From a virus, in IMG/VR virus record IMGVR_UViG_3300011115_000373, positions 1 through 62,287 of that record: DNA of 62,287 nucleotides. One strand, given 5' to 3'. Numbering within the stretch: position 1 is the stretch's first letter; each line of letters opens with the position of its first letter. The position numbers and the translations under genes are program-made. Shown here piece by piece: positions 5,850-36,335 of this stretch. The notes below the pieces were generated by a model that saw only the letters and a list, made by a program, of their open reading frames with translations, had not been told where the DNA came from and ran no database searches.

Positions 5850-6339
5850 ACTAACTGCTGGACAGGTATTACAACCTATTCCAGCCGGTATCTCTTGGAC
5901 TGCTCCAGATAAAAGCAGAGCATGGCAGAATCCTCCTAAGTTTACAAAGCTTTCTGATGTAGCTAATAACTACGTTACTATGCTGTCTTCTAAGCAGATG
6001 GCTAACAGTGTGTTGGATGCTCTGGATACTAAGGCTCCTCTAGCTTCTTTGGCTGAGGCCATTATGCTTAGTGGTGTACAGAAGGGCGCTCATACTTTGG
6101 ATACTGGTATCCTTGTTATGCCCATCATTATTGAGATGTTGAAGACAGTGGCTATGCTACACGACATCAAAACTGTTACATATTCTGAGGAATATGATGA
6201 CATGCGTGTTATACCTACTAGAGCAGTTAAGATGGCTCTGGCTAGTAAGATGGAAATGCCAACAGAAGATATGTCTTCTCTCCCTGCTCCAGAACCTAAG
6301 GCAGGACTAATGCAGCGCAAAACTAAAGTAGAGGCTTAA
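5836..6339 (+). CDS. putative virion-associated protein (167 aa)
   Basis: The start is supported by AGGAG 8 bp upstream. The N-terminus is Pro/Trp-rich (PAGISWTAPDKSRAWQNPP), as seen in small phage head or tail proteins encoded next to internal virion proteins. The middle is hydrophobic (GILVMPIIIEMLKTVAML), and the C-terminus is polar and basic. Located between the 613- and 711-aa proteins. Function unknown; a minor structural role is likely. Confidence 0.55.
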   Translation: MATNELTAGQVLQPIPAGISWTAPDKSRAWQNPPKFTKLSDVANNYVTMLSSKQMANSVLDALDTKAPLASLAEAIMLSGVQKGAHTLDTGILVMPIIIEMLKTVAMLHDIKTVTYSEEYDDMRVIPTRAVKMALASKMEMPTEDMSSLPAPEPKAGLMQRKTKVEA

Positions 6340-6340
6340 C

Positions 6341-8476
6341 ATGGATTTTGATTGGACATCTTTCGGTACTGGTTTTGCTAAAGCTGCCAGCGAGAACTTC
6401 TCTAAGGAAGAAGAGGATGCAAAGGCATTAGCTGCTGCTCATGTTAAATCTATGTACGATAACTACGCAACCGTAGTAAAAGAAAATAGAACACTCTCTA
6501 ATGACATCAAAGAGAAAATCAATGTTATCAAAGGCTTTGCTCCTAACGCCTCAGACGATCAGTTGGTAGCACTGGCTAAGGATAGAGGCATCCTAGATAT
6601 GCTGTCTACTAGACTCAAAGAGAAAGACTTTGATCCAACAGGCTTTGATATTAATAACTTTGTTAAGGTGGCTAAGTCTGATTCGCCTCTGTCGGCTGAA
6701 TCACGGATTGATCAACTCTTCACTATCCCATCTGCTATTAACTCAGCTTCCTCTGGGTTTAAATCTATTACTCCTGAGGGTGAAGTTAAAGAAGGCCCAA
6801 GCTTCCTGTCCAACTTCTCTCTTACTGATATGGCTAAGCGCGGTGCAGAGAAGCAAGCTAAGACCAGTGCTGAACAAACTGCTGCTGCCTTGGGTGTTCC
6901 TTTGGATAAACTACAGGGAGCAATGGGATACAGAAGAGGTACATCTGCATCAGGCGCAGAGTACGATTTGGTTGCACTGAAACCCGGTAAGACTTTGGAG
7001 CAGAGCATTGATGATGCTGCTGTTAAGTTGGCTGCTGCTCAGAAGAAAGGCGATCCAAAGGACATCGAACTGGCTAAGGCTAATGTTGAAAACCTAACTT
7101 CTGTTAAACAATCGCTGAGCGATCCTCAGCAGAAGTGGCTTAACAAAGTTGCTACGCTTAAAGATAAGCAGCTTAACGGCACTACAACAGAAAAGGCTGA
7201 TGCCACTAAGCAGCTAGATGCTCTCTATGCAGAAGAGAAGAGAGCCGCCGAAGCTAAGCAAATGCCTAAAGAGAAGAGAGACAATCTCATTGCCGAGTAT
7301 GAAACAAAGGCGGCTAATGGTGATAAAGAAGCTCTGGCTTGGCTGCTGAATGAAGCTGGTGTTCAGGCTAAAGTATCTGAGGCTAAGCAGACAACTACAC
7401 AACAGCGTGACAATTATCTTGCCGACTTAGACCTTACGGCTAAGGGACAGCGTGGTACACCAGCAGATCAAGAAGCGGCTAAGGCAAAGCTTGTTGAGAT
7501 GAAGAAGCTTGATAAGCTTGTTGCAGAAGCTGGGCAGACTGATACACAGGCGAGAGAGAATAGGCTTGCTGCGTTGAGAACCAAAGCAGATGGTGGTGAT
7601 CTTGAAGCTAAGAATGAACTGCTGCAAGTGGCGGCTATTGATAAAGCCATTACAGAAGCTAAAGAAACCCCTGCTCAACAGCTTACTAACAAGAAGGCTG
7701 AGCTAACCAGTAAAGCTGCTGCCGGTGACAAAGCTGCTGAGAAGGAGTTACAGACATTCTTCGCTATAGAGGGACAAGAAGCCCGCGCTAAAGAAGGAGA
7801 TGTTGCACAGCGAAACAATCGCCTTGCGGTTTTGCAAACTACCATCACTACTTCTAAGGATCCGAAGGAAGTTGCAACAGCCAAAACACAGATGGCTAAG
7901 GAACTTAAGCTCATTGCTGACGAAGCTAGAGCTAGACATGTACCTCCATCTGCTTCAGATAAAGTGCCAAGCTTGGGAGCCTTGAATAGCTTTGTTGCTG
8001 TTAGCGTTGCTCAGGCAGTGCAGAATACGCATGGCAATTTGAAGAACGATATGGCTATCGTGAGTAAGCCTAATGGTGATGGAACATTCTATCAGGACTA
8101 CGACTACATTGGAACTGATCCAGAACTAAGAAAACAAGTTACAGCTACTAAAGCTGCGGCTGCTAAAAAAGCGTTGTCTGTATATACAGATAATAATGGC
8201 GCACCGCTAGATAGAAATGTTCAGGCTGTTATGAATGTCTGGACAGGCTCTGCCACACCACCAGCAAAAGCAGGTGGACTAGGGTCTAGATCAGAGGCTG
8301 CACCAGCACCAGCACCAGCAGCAGCGGCAGCGGCTACTTCTAACACCACCACTACAGGATCTGGAGCCAGCACTGTAGTCATTGTCACTGACAAGGAAGG
8401 AAAGCAATTTAAATTTGAAGGTGCAGATGCAGCTAGAAGAGCCGCAGGGTTCAAGGAAGCAAAAGGACTTAAATAA
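6341..8476 (+). CDS. internal virion-type protein with helical tandem repeats (711 aa)
   Basis: Starts with MDFDWTSFGTGFAKAASENF. After a helical N-terminal domain, residues ~310-525 contain about five imperfect repeats of 45-50 aa, each with a core like QxxNxLAxLxxKAxxGDxEA. The C-terminus has an Ala/Pro run (residues ~650-670) and a short beta end. Position and size match the ejected core proteins of podoviruses, and the long alpha-helical repeats would suit a DNA-ejection tube. The stop overlaps the next start (TAATG). Confidence 0.6.
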   Translation: MDFDWTSFGTGFAKAASENFSKEEEDAKALAAAHVKSMYDNYATVVKENRTLSNDIKEKINVIKGFAPNASDDQLVALAKDRGILDMLSTRLKEKDFDPTGFDINNFVKVAKSDSPLSAESRIDQLFTIPSAINSASSGFKSITPEGEVKEGPSFLSNFSLTDMAKRGAEKQAKTSAEQTAAALGVPLDKLQGAMGYRRGTSASGAEYDLVALKPGKTLEQSIDDAAVKLAAAQKKGDPKDIELAKANVENLTSVKQSLSDPQQKWLNKVATLKDKQLNGTTTEKADATKQLDALYAEEKRAAEAKQMPKEKRDNLIAEYETKAANGDKEALAWLLNEAGVQAKVSEAKQTTTQQRDNYLADLDLTAKGQRGTPADQEAAKAKLVEMKKLDKLVAEAGQTDTQARENRLAALRTKADGGDLEAKNELLQVAAIDKAITEAKETPAQQLTNKKAELTSKAAAGDKAAEKELQTFFAIEGQEARAKEGDVAQRNNRLAVLQTTITTSKDPKEVATAKTQMAKELKLIADEARARHVPPSASDKVPSLGALNSFVAVSVAQAVQNTHGNLKNDMAIVSKPNGDGTFYQDYDYIGTDPELRKQVTATKAAAAKKALSVYTDNNGAPLDRNVQAVMNVWTGSATPPAKAGGLGSRSEAAPAPAPAAAAAATSNTTTTGSGASTVVIVTDKEGKQFKFEGADAARRAAGFKEAKGLK

Positions 8477-29469: not shown

Positions 29470-30343
29470 CTACCATCTCCTCTGCCATACGCTCAGGAAT
29501 TCGAACAGTTCCCATGTCATACAGCTTTTCAGCCATGTCCAACAACTCATCCCGTTTAGCCAGTGCCTTTAGCCACCGCTTAGGGATGTCCTTGTACCCA
29601 TACATAGCACCAGCCATCATGCCTGTCACTGCACCCACTGTGTCTGCATCGTGGCCCTTGTTAACAGCATGCACCACAGCATCCTCAAAGCATGTGTTCA
29701 TGTAGCAGGATTGGGACGCTTGAACATAAGCATGCATGATGGATCCGCTGTTGTCTCTGCCACTGCTACGGATGTTGAAGCTACGCAGTTTGTTGTAGTT
29801 GGTGTACATCTTACCCGCCATGCACTCAACAATGAAAGCCGCTGTGTACCGGACAACATCAGGACTACCATGAGTCATCAGCGACACAGCAACACCCTCA
29901 GCAACAGCCATACCTACAGTGTCATGGTTGGCTAGCATGATGGGAGCTAGTCGCATGATGGAGCCATTGCCACTGGCCTTAGTGTCTGCGCTGCCAGCAT
30001 AGGGAAACTCAGATGTCATACGGCTAATAGCACCGGAACAAGTGCGGCCTATGTCAAAGACATAGTTTCGTGTACCGAAGTGTCCACTCTTTTTCCATGT
30101 CTTGAAGTTGCTAGCAATCTCAGCAGGATCGAAGCCGCCTTTGCTAATGTAGGCTTCAGCAATGGCAACAGCCATAGCCCCATCATCAGTCCACTCGCCA
30201 GCCTCTGTGCTGTGTACACCACCACCTGTCATCTCGCTATGCACACCCTTGATCTCATGGGGACGGAGGAATTCCAGCGGTGCACCTAGTGCATCGCCAA
30301 CAAACAATCCCATGAACATGCCAATGGCATTGTCTTTAATCAT
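29462..30343 (-). CDS. ADP-ribosylglycohydrolase (DraG/ARH family, 293 aa)
   Basis: Removes ADP-ribose from modified targets. Metal-binding motifs are present: GDALGAPLEF (~16-25), EWTDDGAMA (Thr52-Asp53-Asp54), GNGSIMRLAP (~125-134) and KGHDADTVGAVTGMMAGAM (~229-248), with the second Asp pair of the dinuclear centre. Length is normal for the family. In a phage it could reverse host ADP-ribosylation-based defence or regulate a phage ART; a candidate ART-like domain is at ~12862-13230. The target is unknown. Confidence 0.88.
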   Translation of the reverse strand: MIKDNAIGMFMGLFVGDALGAPLEFLRPHEIKGVHSEMTGGGVHSTEAGEWTDDGAMAVAIAEAYISKGGFDPAEIASNFKTWKKSGHFGTRNYVFDIGRTCSGAISRMTSEFPYAGSADTKASGNGSIMRLAPIMLANHDTVGMAVAEGVAVSLMTHGSPDVVRYTAAFIVECMAGKMYTNYNKLRSFNIRSSGRDNSGSIMHAYVQASQSCYMNTCFEDAVVHAVNKGHDADTVGAVTGMMAGAMYGYKDIPKRWLKALAKRDELLDMAEKLYDMGTVRIPERMAEEMVGE

Positions 30344-30536
30344 TGGTATTCACTTTCAAATGTTTCAGGTAGCCACGAAGACGGGTGATCTGTGCTGTAC
30401 GGTAGGCAATGATGGAGTCAGCGTATTCCGCTGCTGTCTCTGCTTCCAGCAGGGAAAGCTCAGCCTCTGCTAGCTCAGCACTCACTGACTCCAACACGGT
30501 GATTTGTTTAAATACTTTGCGAATGAATTGATACAT
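30336..30536 (-). CDS. small coiled-coil protein (66 aa)
   Basis: Leu/Ala/Glu-rich helix (SVSAELAEAELSLLEAETAA) followed by a basic end. Shine-Dalgarno AAGGAAATACATC. Its untranslated leader carries the structured RNA element at 30626-30700, so its translation may be controlled by that RNA. No family recognised. Confidence 0.6.
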   Translation of the reverse strand: MYQFIRKVFKQITVLESVSAELAEAELSLLEAETAAEYADSIIAYRTAQITRLRGYLKHLKVNTND

Positions 30537-30625
30537 GATGTATTTCCTTGAAATAAAAAATAGGAAGCCCTGTCATAAGAGTCGATAGCTATCGCCATTC
30601 TCTTTGATAGCAAGGATTCCCGAAA

Positions 30626-30700
30626 GGTGGGGTACTCGCTGCACTGCGCTTGCTGTATTCCCAGCAGAACTAGGCAGGGCGCAGCATCCGCTTTCCCCCG
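30626..30700 (-). ncRNA. structured RNA element, copy 1 (leader of 30336-30536)
   Basis: Minus-strand RNA between two genes. The outer strands GGGG/CCCC close an internal loop whose sides (GAAAGCGGAT and GCAGCGAGTA) are identical to copy 2. The inner helix CUGCGC/GCGCAG differs from copy 2 by a compensatory C-G for U-A change. The tip holds a small hairpin (UGCUG...CAGCA). There is no U-tract, so this is not a simple terminator. A cis-regulatory leader or small RNA is inferred; no Rfam family was recognised. Confidence 0.6.
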
Positions 30701-30709
30701 TAAATCAAC

Positions 30710-30916
30710 TTAATAATCCATTGCACTACGAATGTCACGGATACGCATCTTGAGCAGGGGCTGAAGATCAATCTTGCTTTGCTCAAGGCGGGCAAGTTCC
30801 ATCTTCAAGGCATGGATGCGGTTGTCAATGTTCTCTTCAACGGTGGGGTTGTGGTCATTGATTTTTGGGCCTACCATTTGTGCCTCAGCAGCGTAAGTCT
30901 TTTCTAGATAATTCAT
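30710..30916 (-). CDS. small coiled-coil protein (68 aa)
   Basis: Starts MNYLEKTYAAEAQMVGPKIN, then NIDNRIHALKMELARLEQ forms a coiled coil. AAAGGAAT precedes the ATG. It lies between the two copies of the structured RNA, with copy 2 as its leader and copy 1 just after its stop. Unknown function. Confidence 0.6.
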   Translation of the reverse strand: MNYLEKTYAAEAQMVGPKINDHNPTVEENIDNRIHALKMELARLEQSKIDLQPLLKMRIRDIRSAMDY

Positions 30917-30941
30917 TTTGAAATTCCTTTAAGTTAAAAAT

Positions 30942-31025
30942 GGTGGGGTACTCGCTGCACTGTGCCTAGCCGTCAGTTCAAGATCGGGCCTTGCAAGTTT
31001 GTCGCACAGCATCCGCTTTCCCCCG
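30942..31025 (-). ncRNA. structured RNA element, copy 2 (leader of 30710-30916)
   Basis: Same architecture as copy 1, with a longer tip (84 nt against 75 nt). The inner helix is CUGUGC/GCACAG, and the tip contains CAAG...CUUG. Flanking strands are invariant (19 nt on the 5' side up to the covarying base, about 20 nt on the 3' side) while the tip has no similarity, which argues for a conserved RNA fold. It starts 15 bp after the DUF932 stop. Confidence 0.6.
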
Positions 31026-31040
31026 AAACCTGCCTAAAAA

Positions 31041-31982
31041 TTAAGCAATTGCTGTCTCGGCAACAGCCCAGCCATGAGGAGCCACCTCTTCTACGGCTGT
31101 GCCACAATAGGCATCTGCAATTGTCCACAGTTCGCTGTTGACACGGATCCCCTCAGACACACTGCTGATGGGGCGGGCTTTCCGCATAATGCCAGTGTCA
31201 CCATGCTTTGTGTTGGCCTTGCTGAGGCTACGAACAAACGCATTACCCCGCACCACCGCTTCCTGAATACGATTGAACACAGTGAATGCATCCATGTAAT
31301 CGTCTTCGTTACGCTGCACTGCCAATGCATCACGCACCGTCTTCTCTGTGGCATAGGAGCCAAAGGGAACGCTTTCGGAATAGGGCAGGTCTGTGATGAT
31401 GTCATCAAACATTTTCCAGCGAGTCTGAACACCCTTACGGGCCATGTCAGCAGCATCACCGTAGGACAGCTTGGTGCAGCGCAGCTTTTCGATACGCTCC
31501 ATCAGCAGAGGCAGCGAGTTAACGGTGCTAGCCAGCATATCTTCGAAGCCGTTGATCGACTTAGCGCTGTGGTACATACGGGATTGGAACCCATCACCAG
31601 CAACGATGCCGTTGGAGCAGATGAAGCGGAAACAACCAGCAAACAAACGCACACTGCTGCTACCATCATGGCTGTTGTAGAGAATAATCTCAGGGCGAAC
31701 ATCACCGATGATGTCTTCGGTGTGGTAGGTTTTGGCAAAGCTCAGCATGTGGCTGGAGTGCTGTGCCTCACCCTTGCGGCTCTTCTTCTGAGCAGCTTGC
31801 ATGGGGAAGTAACCGAAGTCTGCCAACACAGGCAGCAATTGGGCAGTGTTCAGCGAAGCGTAACGCTCTGACAAGCCCTCTGCTTTGGTGCTGCTGAATA
31901 CAGCAGGAGCCAACTGCTGGATCCGCTCATTGGTCAGAGCAGTGTTGTTGGCATTACGGGAGAAGATGAGATGCTTTTGCAT
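31041..31982 (-). CDS. DUF932 phage/plasmid protein (313 aa)
   Basis: Matches the DUF932 family of phages and plasmids: YNSHDGSSSVRLFAGCFRFICSNG block (~105-128), then GFEDM and long helices, and a C-terminal RMRK-like part. The family is widespread and often highly expressed early; its function is unknown. A sigma70-like promoter at 32031-32058 and AAGGAA Shine-Dalgarno precede it. Codons are GC-richer (CGC, GTG) than in nearby small genes, consistent with high expression. Confidence 0.82.
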   Translation of the reverse strand: MQKHLIFSRNANNTALTNERIQQLAPAVFSSTKAEGLSERYASLNTAQLLPVLADFGYFPMQAAQKKSRKGEAQHSSHMLSFAKTYHTEDIIGDVRPEIILYNSHDGSSSVRLFAGCFRFICSNGIVAGDGFQSRMYHSAKSINGFEDMLASTVNSLPLLMERIEKLRCTKLSYGDAADMARKGVQTRWKMFDDIITDLPYSESVPFGSYATEKTVRDALAVQRNEDDYMDAFTVFNRIQEAVVRGNAFVRSLSKANTKHGDTGIMRKARPISSVSEGIRVNSELWTIADAYCGTAVEEVAPHGWAVAETAIA

Positions 31983-35293: not shown

Positions 35294-36046
35294 TTATGCT
35301 GCCACTGCTATGGGAATGATCTTACGATCAAACACAAATCCGCTGTAGTCGTTTTTCGCTTTGCCTTTGGCATAAAGAGCCACAACCACACCCTTATCTT
35401 CTAAGTGACGAATGTCACTGTTATCACCACCGATAACCGGCATTCCTCTGTGCATCTTAGGGATAGATGCTACATCACGGAATACTGTGGCAATTCGCAT
35501 TCCCAATGCCACAGCTTTTTCGACAAAGGGCTGAAAGCCCTGCACCCCGCTGTCGCTGAATGTCAGATCGTAGTTGGAGGGAATAACCTTACGGTTAACA
35601 TCTTTGGTGTAGTCGTAGAATTGAACATCGGGAAAAGCATCGAAGATGCTTGCATACTCAGTGCCATCGGCATCGGTAAAACCTACGGTTTCCCACCGAA
35701 TGTCGCTTGTACCATTCAATCGGATCAATGGGGTTTTCCCTTGCTTTGTTGCTTTAGCAACTAGCTGACGAATATTCAAAGCAAGCTGTACCATGAAAGA
35801 GCTACGCTCTTCAAAGAACCATATCGTTTTGTTGATTCTGCCCTGAGCCACTGTTGACATAGCACCCCGTCCAGCGGTGAACAAGCATGCCTTGCCACAA
35901 TCCGCTATCTTAGCCATGCTGCAAGTATTCCACTTTGTGGAAGTGTATGGTGCTAGGTAGAGGATGCCGGTTAAGAAACCGTAGGTTTCACCCTTGACTG
36001 TTTTGGCATCGCTGCCGATAGAAAGCAAAGCTTTAGACTTGAACAT
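35294..36046 (-). CDS. gp88-like early phage protein (250 aa)
   Basis: First gene of the early arm. It has CSMAKIADCGKACLFTAGRG (~42-61), then PLIRLNGTSDIRWE (~105-118), VQFYDYTKD (~140-148) and a C-terminal DRKIIPIAV. These blocks match the family named after mycobacteriophage gp88, found in many phages and of unknown function; the Cys cluster may hold a metal. The leader contains a perfect palindrome over the SD (36053-36066) and an extended -10 promoter at 36096. Confidence 0.65.
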   Translation of the reverse strand: MFKSKALLSIGSDAKTVKGETYGFLTGILYLAPYTSTKWNTCSMAKIADCGKACLFTAGRGAMSTVAQGRINKTIWFFEERSSFMVQLALNIRQLVAKATKQGKTPLIRLNGTSDIRWETVGFTDADGTEYASIFDAFPDVQFYDYTKDVNRKVIPSNYDLTFSDSGVQGFQPFVEKAVALGMRIATVFRDVASIPKMHRGMPVIGGDNSDIRHLEDKGVVVALYAKGKAKNDYSGFVFDRKIIPIAVAA

Positions 36047-36052
36047 ACCGTG

Positions 36053-36066
36053 TTTCCTTAAGGAAA
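36053..36066 (-). promoter_or_regulatory. SD palindrome before the 36046 start
   Basis: Perfect 14-nt palindrome TTTCCTTAAGGAAA that includes the Shine-Dalgarno AAGGAA, 6 nt before the ATG. Variant of the mini-hairpin seen before five other early genes. Confidence 0.6.
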
Positions 36067-36095
36067 GAGTGTGGCAAAATCGCCGTGAGAACCGT

Positions 36096-36104
36096 ACTAT
36101 AGCA
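36096..36104 (-). promoter_or_regulatory. extended -10 promoter for the early (minus) arm
   Basis: On the minus strand TGCTATAGT (TG-n-TATAGT). No good -35 at 16-18 bp, which is tolerated by extended -10 promoters. Expected start near 36090, giving a leader of about 44 nt to the 250-aa gene. Confidence 0.5.
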
Positions 36105-36155
36105 GAACAATAATGACCACAAAGGCCGTGGGGTTATCGCTGTCTTTTCTCATTT

Positions 36156-36241
36156 TTTGTCTTTCATTTTTTATTAAGAAGAAAGTATTTCCCCTTTTCA
36201 TACTTAAAAGGGGATACTTTCTTCAAAAAATGAAAGACAAA
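36156..36241. repeat. large 86-bp inverted repeat
   Basis: Outer arms of 17 bp are perfect (TTTGTCTTTCATTTTTT with its complement) and inner arms of 19-21 bp (GAAGAAAGTAT..CCCCTTTT) have a 2-nt bulge, around a short loop. U/A-tracts lie on both sides, so it could terminate transcription in both directions. Alternatively it is a cruciform-forming part of the origin. Confidence 0.85.
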
Positions 36242-36265
36242 GATTCGCGTATGATGCGCGCAGAT

Positions 36266-36335
36266 CTTCCTAAATTAATACAATTCTAGACGCCATCAGA
36301 GATGGCATAAGAATTGTCTCAATTAATTTAGGAAG
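36266..36335. repeat. 70-bp inverted repeat with nested hairpin
   Basis: Arms CTTCCTAAATTAAT (36266-36279) and its complement at 36322-36335, then ACAATTCT/AGAATTGT, and at the tip GCCATC-AGA-GATGGC. One arm has an extra CTCA. Adjacent to the DnaA boxes, it suggests a replication-linked structure. Confidence 0.8.

Follow-up and report, generated by a model that had tools for sequence, protein, structure and literature searches.

Between positions 30,626 and 31,025 of the window (the whole 62,287-nucleotide stretch of IMG/VR virus record IMGVR_UViG_3300011115_000373), two similar minus-strand sequences lie among small genes, and the question they raise is whether they are structured RNAs and, if so, whether they serve the gene that follows or the gene that precedes them. 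An initial annotation had read them as leaders of the small genes downstream. The locus contains the following features:

31041..31982, minus strand: gene upstream of copy 1, DUF932 / phrog_12094, 313 aa (PF06067, E 3.4e-21; phrog_12094, E 7.5e-39)
30942..31025, minus strand: copy 1 of the element (exact matches; covariance model R1, 57.2 bits; structure backed by relatives)
31021-31024 with 30945-30948, minus strand: copy 1, outer helix P1
31009-31019 (AAAGCGGATGC) and 30949-30958 (GCAGCGAGTA), minus strand: copy 1, core strands
30959-31008, minus strand: copy 1, tip, 50 nt
30942-30944, minus strand: copy 1, ACC tail
30710..30916, minus strand: 68-aa ORF between the copies, 3' of copy 1 and 5' of copy 2 (ORF list)
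30626..30700, minus strand: copy 2 of the element (exact matches; covariance model R1, 62.3 bits)
30696-30699 with 30629-30632, minus strand: copy 2, outer helix P1
30684-30694 and 30633-30642, minus strand: copy 2, core strands
30643-30683, minus strand: copy 2, tip, 41 nt
30626-30628, minus strand: copy 2, ACC tail
30562..30621, minus strand: additional intercistronic hairpin, GGGAATCCTTG...CAGGGCTTCC, directly 3' of copy 2 and on a different scaffold (folding)
30336..30536, minus strand: 66-aa ORF downstream of copy 2 (ORF list)

Two copies in the window

The 5' arm CGGGGGAAAGCGGATGCTG has exactly two matches in the window, both on the minus strand (30682-30700 and 31007-31025), and the 3' arm GCAGTGCAGCGAGTACCCCACC is exact at 30626-30647 with a single mismatch at 30942-30963, so that the copies share a 19-nt 5' arm and a 22-nt 3' arm that differs at one position. 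No dinucleotide shuffle gave two matches of the shared arms, even at three mismatches; the two copies are real, beyond chance, and the near-identical pair sharing ~40 nt that the initial annotation had described is confirmed. Its lengths of 75 and 84 nt hold for the whole copies, not for the tips to which it had assigned them, and the copies stand 241 bp apart rather than 242. The one compensatory exchange that it had reported in the inner helix, U-A for C-G, is seen in the copies themselves: the copy at 31.0 kb has GCUGUGC/GCACAGU, the one at 30.7 kb GCUGCGC/GCGCAGU. The folding energies of the single window sequences are within the normal range (z 0.99 and −0.77), so the case for structure rests on the comparison with relatives, which is very strong.

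Copy 1 begins its P1 16 nt beyond the DUF932 stop codon (31041-31043), and 10 nt separate the stop of the 68-aa ORF, which is conserved in the related contig L123, from the P1 of copy 2. Neither this ORF nor the 66-aa one had any match in family searches. Small ORFs do follow both copies, as had been noted; between copy 2 and its ORF lie ~90 nt that contain another hairpin. This hairpin has a palindromic apical part (AGAGAATGGCGATAGCTATC), the apical 20-mer of which was found in only two other contigs, the relatives L124/L443 and L125/L442. Elsewhere in the window (~36150-36245), folding of 36040-36330 gave a very long near-perfect hairpin between genes, TTTGTCTTTCATTTTTT...AAAAAATGAAAGACAAA, with inner GGGG/CCCC arms.

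A widespread family of structured RNAs

A pattern consisting of both arms and a free tip retrieved at least 120 IMG/VR contigs, and two further patterns, one allowing short tips and one allowing different P1 arms, retrieved at least 120 contigs each. With other loci added, the three patterns gave at least 316 distinct sequences; three P1 pairs form in 306, and a handful of the others are chance matches. The RNA family is thus widespread, occurring in at least 300 contigs of environmental, uncultured phages. Against Rfam 15 (4227 families) the window copies had no match up to E 10, bar an unrelated chance match, and neither did the elements of 20 relatives, the sole exception being one tRNA-derived tip. 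No paper turned up in a literature text search with the core sequence. BLAST of isolated-phage records found nothing with a long-tip element as query, and with the minimal element gave a good match in only two uncultured-phage records. A scan of ~85,000 bacterial and archaeal genomes gave five contigs with the pattern, one of them false: the Imhoffiella match (L132), a chance match within coding DNA that has no P1. Three of the four real matches are labelled as betaproteobacterial bins or Pelomonas, and one relative has a Betaproteobacteria-1 RNA (RF02932, 101 bits; L140, 1787-1904) a short way 3' of its element; on these two grounds we infer that the hosts are probably betaproteobacteria.

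The common architecture runs from a covarying outer helix (P1) through a near-invariant 21-nt internal-loop core to an inner helix (P3), which also covaries, and ends in a tip. P1 is mostly 4–6 bp, most often GGGG/CCCC, and changes on both sides. In 63 elements with different P1 arms, chosen for P1 variety and not for pairing and with tips cut out, 98.9% of cells pair, two-sided changes number 97 against 23 in shuffles (0/500) and the covariation score is 0.493 against 0.099 (0/500), with G-U pairs included, as in RNA. P3 gave 37 two-sided cells against 14 in shuffles (0/500). Covariation of both helices among relatives bears out the earlier proposal of a structured RNA.

Between P1 and P3, the core strands AAAGCGGAUGC / GCAGCGAGUA are exact in 289/295 elements, most of which were retrieved with that very pattern; in a set chosen independently by polymerase similarity (see below), each of 33 cores is at most one base off the consensus within both strands. 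The internal loop behaves like a recognition site, as had been suggested, in that P1 and P3 vary freely and the core does not. We propose that P1 is followed by GAA opposite AGUA (a motif which we take to be of the bulged-G or sarcin-ricin type), A.G, G-C, C-G, a bulged GGA, U-A and G-C, leading into a P3 with a short 3' bulge; this internal pairing is a proposal, as only one core pair shows any variation. Directly 3' of P1 there is an ACC(U) consensus (A 68%, C 89%, C 80%; n=300), and R-C-C is found in 151/162 elements with a C-only P1 and in 98/137 with another P1. Only 65/300 have four or more consecutive T within 12 nt of the stem. In the window, as had been noted, no U-tract comes directly after it.

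Most of the 50 whole records were picked for having one copy, and what they tell is confined to how rare a second copy is: 46 contain exactly one detectable R1 match and the window two good ones, whilst L123 and L128 each have one good and one decayed match and one record ends inside the element. Two exact cores were found only in the window among 307 loci, and the duplication is a peculiarity of this phage.

Exchange of the variable tips

We found 268 different tips of 8–84 nt, the shortest of which (CGAAAGG or CGCAAGG) amount to a GAAA or GCAA tetraloop only. In L019, L060, L087, L100 and L134 the tip resembles tRNA-Arg, with D- and T-arms; ARAGORN calls a tRNA-Arg in L134, the Rfam tRNA model scores 27.7 bits in L019, just below threshold, and these tips are tRNA remnants in the tip slot. 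Phages that share one site, with upstream DNA 90–99% identical, often have unrelated tips. For example, L054 and L259 are ~99% identical in both flanks and their tips share 0.45 identity, which is the random level; L127 and L128 likewise combine near-identical flanks with unrelated tips, and in L123 the copy-1 tip of the window is present at the copy-2 site. Unrelated tips between near-identical flanks imply that each tip is swapped as a unit, with recombination via the conserved arms the probable route.

Several groups in the tip listing have constant loops and changing stems, but no convincing consensus structure emerged when two tip families were quickly aligned, and constraint inside the tips is only suggestive. 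Stops occur at about equal frequency in the three frames of relatives' tips (38, 42 and 30 in 80 tips), contrary to the idea that the invariant parts belong to a translated frame. We also rejected a translated mini-ORF (a start-like GGGGG...ATG), as no frame is open from the conserved ATG and tip lengths are not multiples of three. In L123 (~6330-6420) and L125 (~6040-6150), tip modules ACAGGGGAYUGCGGAACGGCGGUC; GUUGCCACCUGAUUUAAAGGGUCA occur on another outer scaffold, GGAGGGAAGCU...AGCUUUCCUCC, with two such modules inside one three-way junction in L125.

The element is anchored to the upstream stop codon

The gap between the preceding stop codon and P1 is 4–8 nt in 217/268 scored elements (10 and 16 nt in the window), whilst the distance to the next start codon covers a broad range. 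By crude gene calling, the upstream neighbour is on the same strand in 136/155 cases and the downstream neighbour in 127/155, and the upstream stop is TAA in 169/266. Upstream genes mostly belong to ssDNA-binding or recombination families (n=254):

phrog_18154, ssDNA-binding: 59/254
phrog_9528: 36/254
small Cys-rich peptides: 28/254
phrog_27714: 25/254
DUF669 / ssDNA-binding: 21/254
Enc34 ssDNA-binding: 14/254
Pam3 gp34-like: 14/254
DUF932 (the upstream gene in the window): 6/254
Gp157 / Mu-Gam-like: 5/254
RecT; helicase: once each

Downstream families (DNA polymerase, exonuclease, MazG, RusA) are mutually unrelated. AlphaFold models of phrog_9528 (pLDDT 81) and phrog_27714 (pLDDT 54) gave weak Foldseek matches to a PhiC31 RDF structure, PrgE and SSBs, none with E < 0.001, and a predicted OB-like ssDNA-binding fold for the two is a lead, not a result; a profile search of the upstream proteins against PDB sequences returned nothing useful. 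The Cys-rich peptides are secreted-looking products of ~50–70 aa encoded in the replication module (e.g. L402, 2286-2435; L009, 7887-8093).

Other structures were observed in the same neighbourhood. Just 5' of the polymerase start, L200, L201, L208, L226, L228, L239 and L242 have a small hairpin whose loop contains the Shine-Dalgarno sequence and whose stem changes (GGAUG AAGUGAGG CAUCC / GGUUG AAGUGAGG CAACC); it may be a translational operator for the polymerase. The interval between element and polymerase in L165-L190 contains a second conserved structured RNA with a changing outer stem, GGCUCCUGUCAU...AUGACGGGAGCC, and a constant inner UUCCUUGGUCGGUUCG...

To see what occupies homologous gene ends, we used 80 contigs picked by DNA polymerase similarity alone, 73 of which hold the phrog_9528 gene. 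After its stop codon the core is present in 33/73 (31 exact, plus L197 and L225 with one substitution each), ~10/73 have hairpins with GAA/AGUA but no core, three (L205, L238, L243) have U-tract terminators, most others have plain G+C hairpins such as GGGGCGGCUUCGGUCGCCCC, and in 7/73 nothing follows the stop. The plain hairpins mostly start 5–7 nt past the stop. As hairpins and terminators replace the core at homologous ends, this place selects for a post-stop structure rather than a ligand-like core, the core element being one way of providing it. Intrinsic terminators resemble the element in being post-stop G+C stems found at the same place; unlike them, the element continues from P1 into ACC(U) instead of a direct U-tract, and we rejected an intrinsic terminator for that reason. 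The set is the strongest argument for protection, definition or processing of the 3' end, and counts against riboswitch, trans-RNA and antitermination readings.

Possible functions of the element

We give an even chance to the reading we favour, in which a cis-acting intercistronic element, placed after the stop codon of a cistron in the early or replication module, would protect, define or process the 3' end of the upstream mRNA. The mechanism is drawn from the position, the substitutes in relatives and the malE precedent. In E. coli operons, upstream cistrons that are stabilised have stable hairpins lacking a U-tract at their 3' ends (PMC5927463), and those of the malE-malF type (malEFG, pufBALMX and other E. 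coli operons; PMC5927463) are likewise stems without a U-tract, placed after a stop codon between cistrons, with an upstream product that is probably needed in excess. The phage element has this position too, right after the stop codon and between co-directional genes; it differs in its near-invariant 21-nt core, exchangeable tips and roughly one copy per genome, and protection is what we infer for it. Endonucleases would first cut the less translated downstream mRNA, and the element would then stop 3'-5' exonucleases, or help to define or process the 3' end, leaving the upstream product, usually an ssDNA-binding or recombination protein, in excess over downstream enzymes such as DNA polymerase and exonuclease, in the manner of the malE-malF structure of E. 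coli. The upstream cistron would thereby be uncoupled from the downstream genes, if the relative protein needs are as assumed. The core would adopt a compact, non-canonical fold that a host factor recognises or that acts as a rigid roadblock; the tip would be a permissive slot into which recombination via the conserved arms brings new sequences.

Several observations sit poorly with 3'-end protection, definition or processing by the element. A 21-nt core kept almost letter for letter, beside a P1 and a tip that turn over, is more than a plain roadblock requires. About one detectable copy per genome is not what a generic stabiliser would lead one to expect, and this reading leaves the ACC(U) tail without explanation. 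In the window the upstream gene is DUF932, no known ssDNA-binding protein, and the gaps are 10 and 16 nt. Conservation of the core goes beyond what a mere roadblock would explain. It is possible, if doubtful, that the core is a new kind of RNA receptor recognised by a conserved host factor, or blocks exonucleases by RNA alone, and that the tip is an exchangeable domain adding phage-specific binding; the whole would then be a modular, recombining RNA cassette system, usually present once per genome behind replication genes. The same core follows non-homologous upstream proteins, so no upstream protein is likely to be the common partner.

The tail hints at a tRNA-like 3' end and at RNase P. Were P1 and its R-C-C tail treated as such an end, RNase P or another structure-specific host RNase would cut at the 5' base of P1, severing the polycistronic mRNA just past the stop. 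In most elements R-C-C follows the stem (151/162 and 98/137, as above, with A-C-C the consensus directly 3' of P1), which recalls RNase P substrates with tRNA-like ends, a tRNA-derived tip exists, and P1 with GAA/AGUA, A.G and two pairs may stack to about the length of an acceptor-T stem. Unlike such substrates, P1 is short and R-C-C is absent in ~17%, and one tip provides the only tRNA-like Rfam match; we regard this hypothetical cleavage as unlikely. Rather unlikely, too, is a docking site from which a host or phage protein would act on transcription, in put- or nut-like antitermination, or on the operon as a whole. An invariant core between covarying helices could be its recognition element, the operon is an early or replication one, and about one copy per genome is expected of an operon-wide cis element. 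HK022 put RNA is a precedent, a structured RNA of ~70 nt with conserved unpaired nucleotides in a phage early operon, putR lying ~270 nt into its operon (PMC9378689). However, putRNA has two stem-loops and the element one, its anchor is stop codons, not promoters, and homologous places hold plain hairpins or true terminators, the opposite of antitermination; with a single hairpin and stop-codon anchoring, we did not assign it to the put RNAs.

A riboswitch or autoregulatory leader of the downstream gene, which the initial annotation had proposed for small coiled-coil genes, or autoregulation of the upstream gene by an ssDNA-binding protein, has in our judgement only a slight probability. The invariant internal loop, the duplication before small genes in the window and T4 gp32 as an autogenous translational repressor (PMC535899) speak for it. 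The downstream genes, however, lack functional coherence or fixed spacing, the tight spacing being to the upstream stop, plain hairpins and terminators stand at homologous sites, and the element comes after, not before, the ssDNA-binding gene. Equally slight is the probability of a trans-acting small RNA cut from the mRNA, with the tip as its variable targeting part: about one copy per genome and hypervariable, exchanged tips would suit it, but tetraloop tips of GAAA or GCAA offer no targeting sequence and relatives have plain hairpins instead. Least credible of all is a DNA-level mobile cassette or recombination or replication site (attC-, REP- or ssi-like), or a recoding signal at the stop. 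Tips do move between sites, and recoding stimulators have a spacing after the stop codon like that of the element. Yet second copies are rare, P1 covaries in the RNA manner with G-U pairs and the strand is constant, the same as that of the upstream gene; with no shared recombination core seen, we rejected an attC- or IS200-like site, and recoding as well, as most stops are TAA (169/266) and no frame is open through the element.

3'-end protection, definition or processing by an intercistronic element thus remains our preferred reading, in which the element probably helps to set the amount of each neighbouring protein. The family, which marks where replication and ssDNA-binding genes end, has no Rfam entry and hardly occurs in collections of isolated-phage and bacterial genomes. 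Its core stays invariant although the helices on either side change freely, from which a specific partner is predicted, and the swapping of its tips amounts to a natural experiment on modular RNA. The family would offer small constructs for studying how compact phage operons yield unequal amounts of protein from one transcript.
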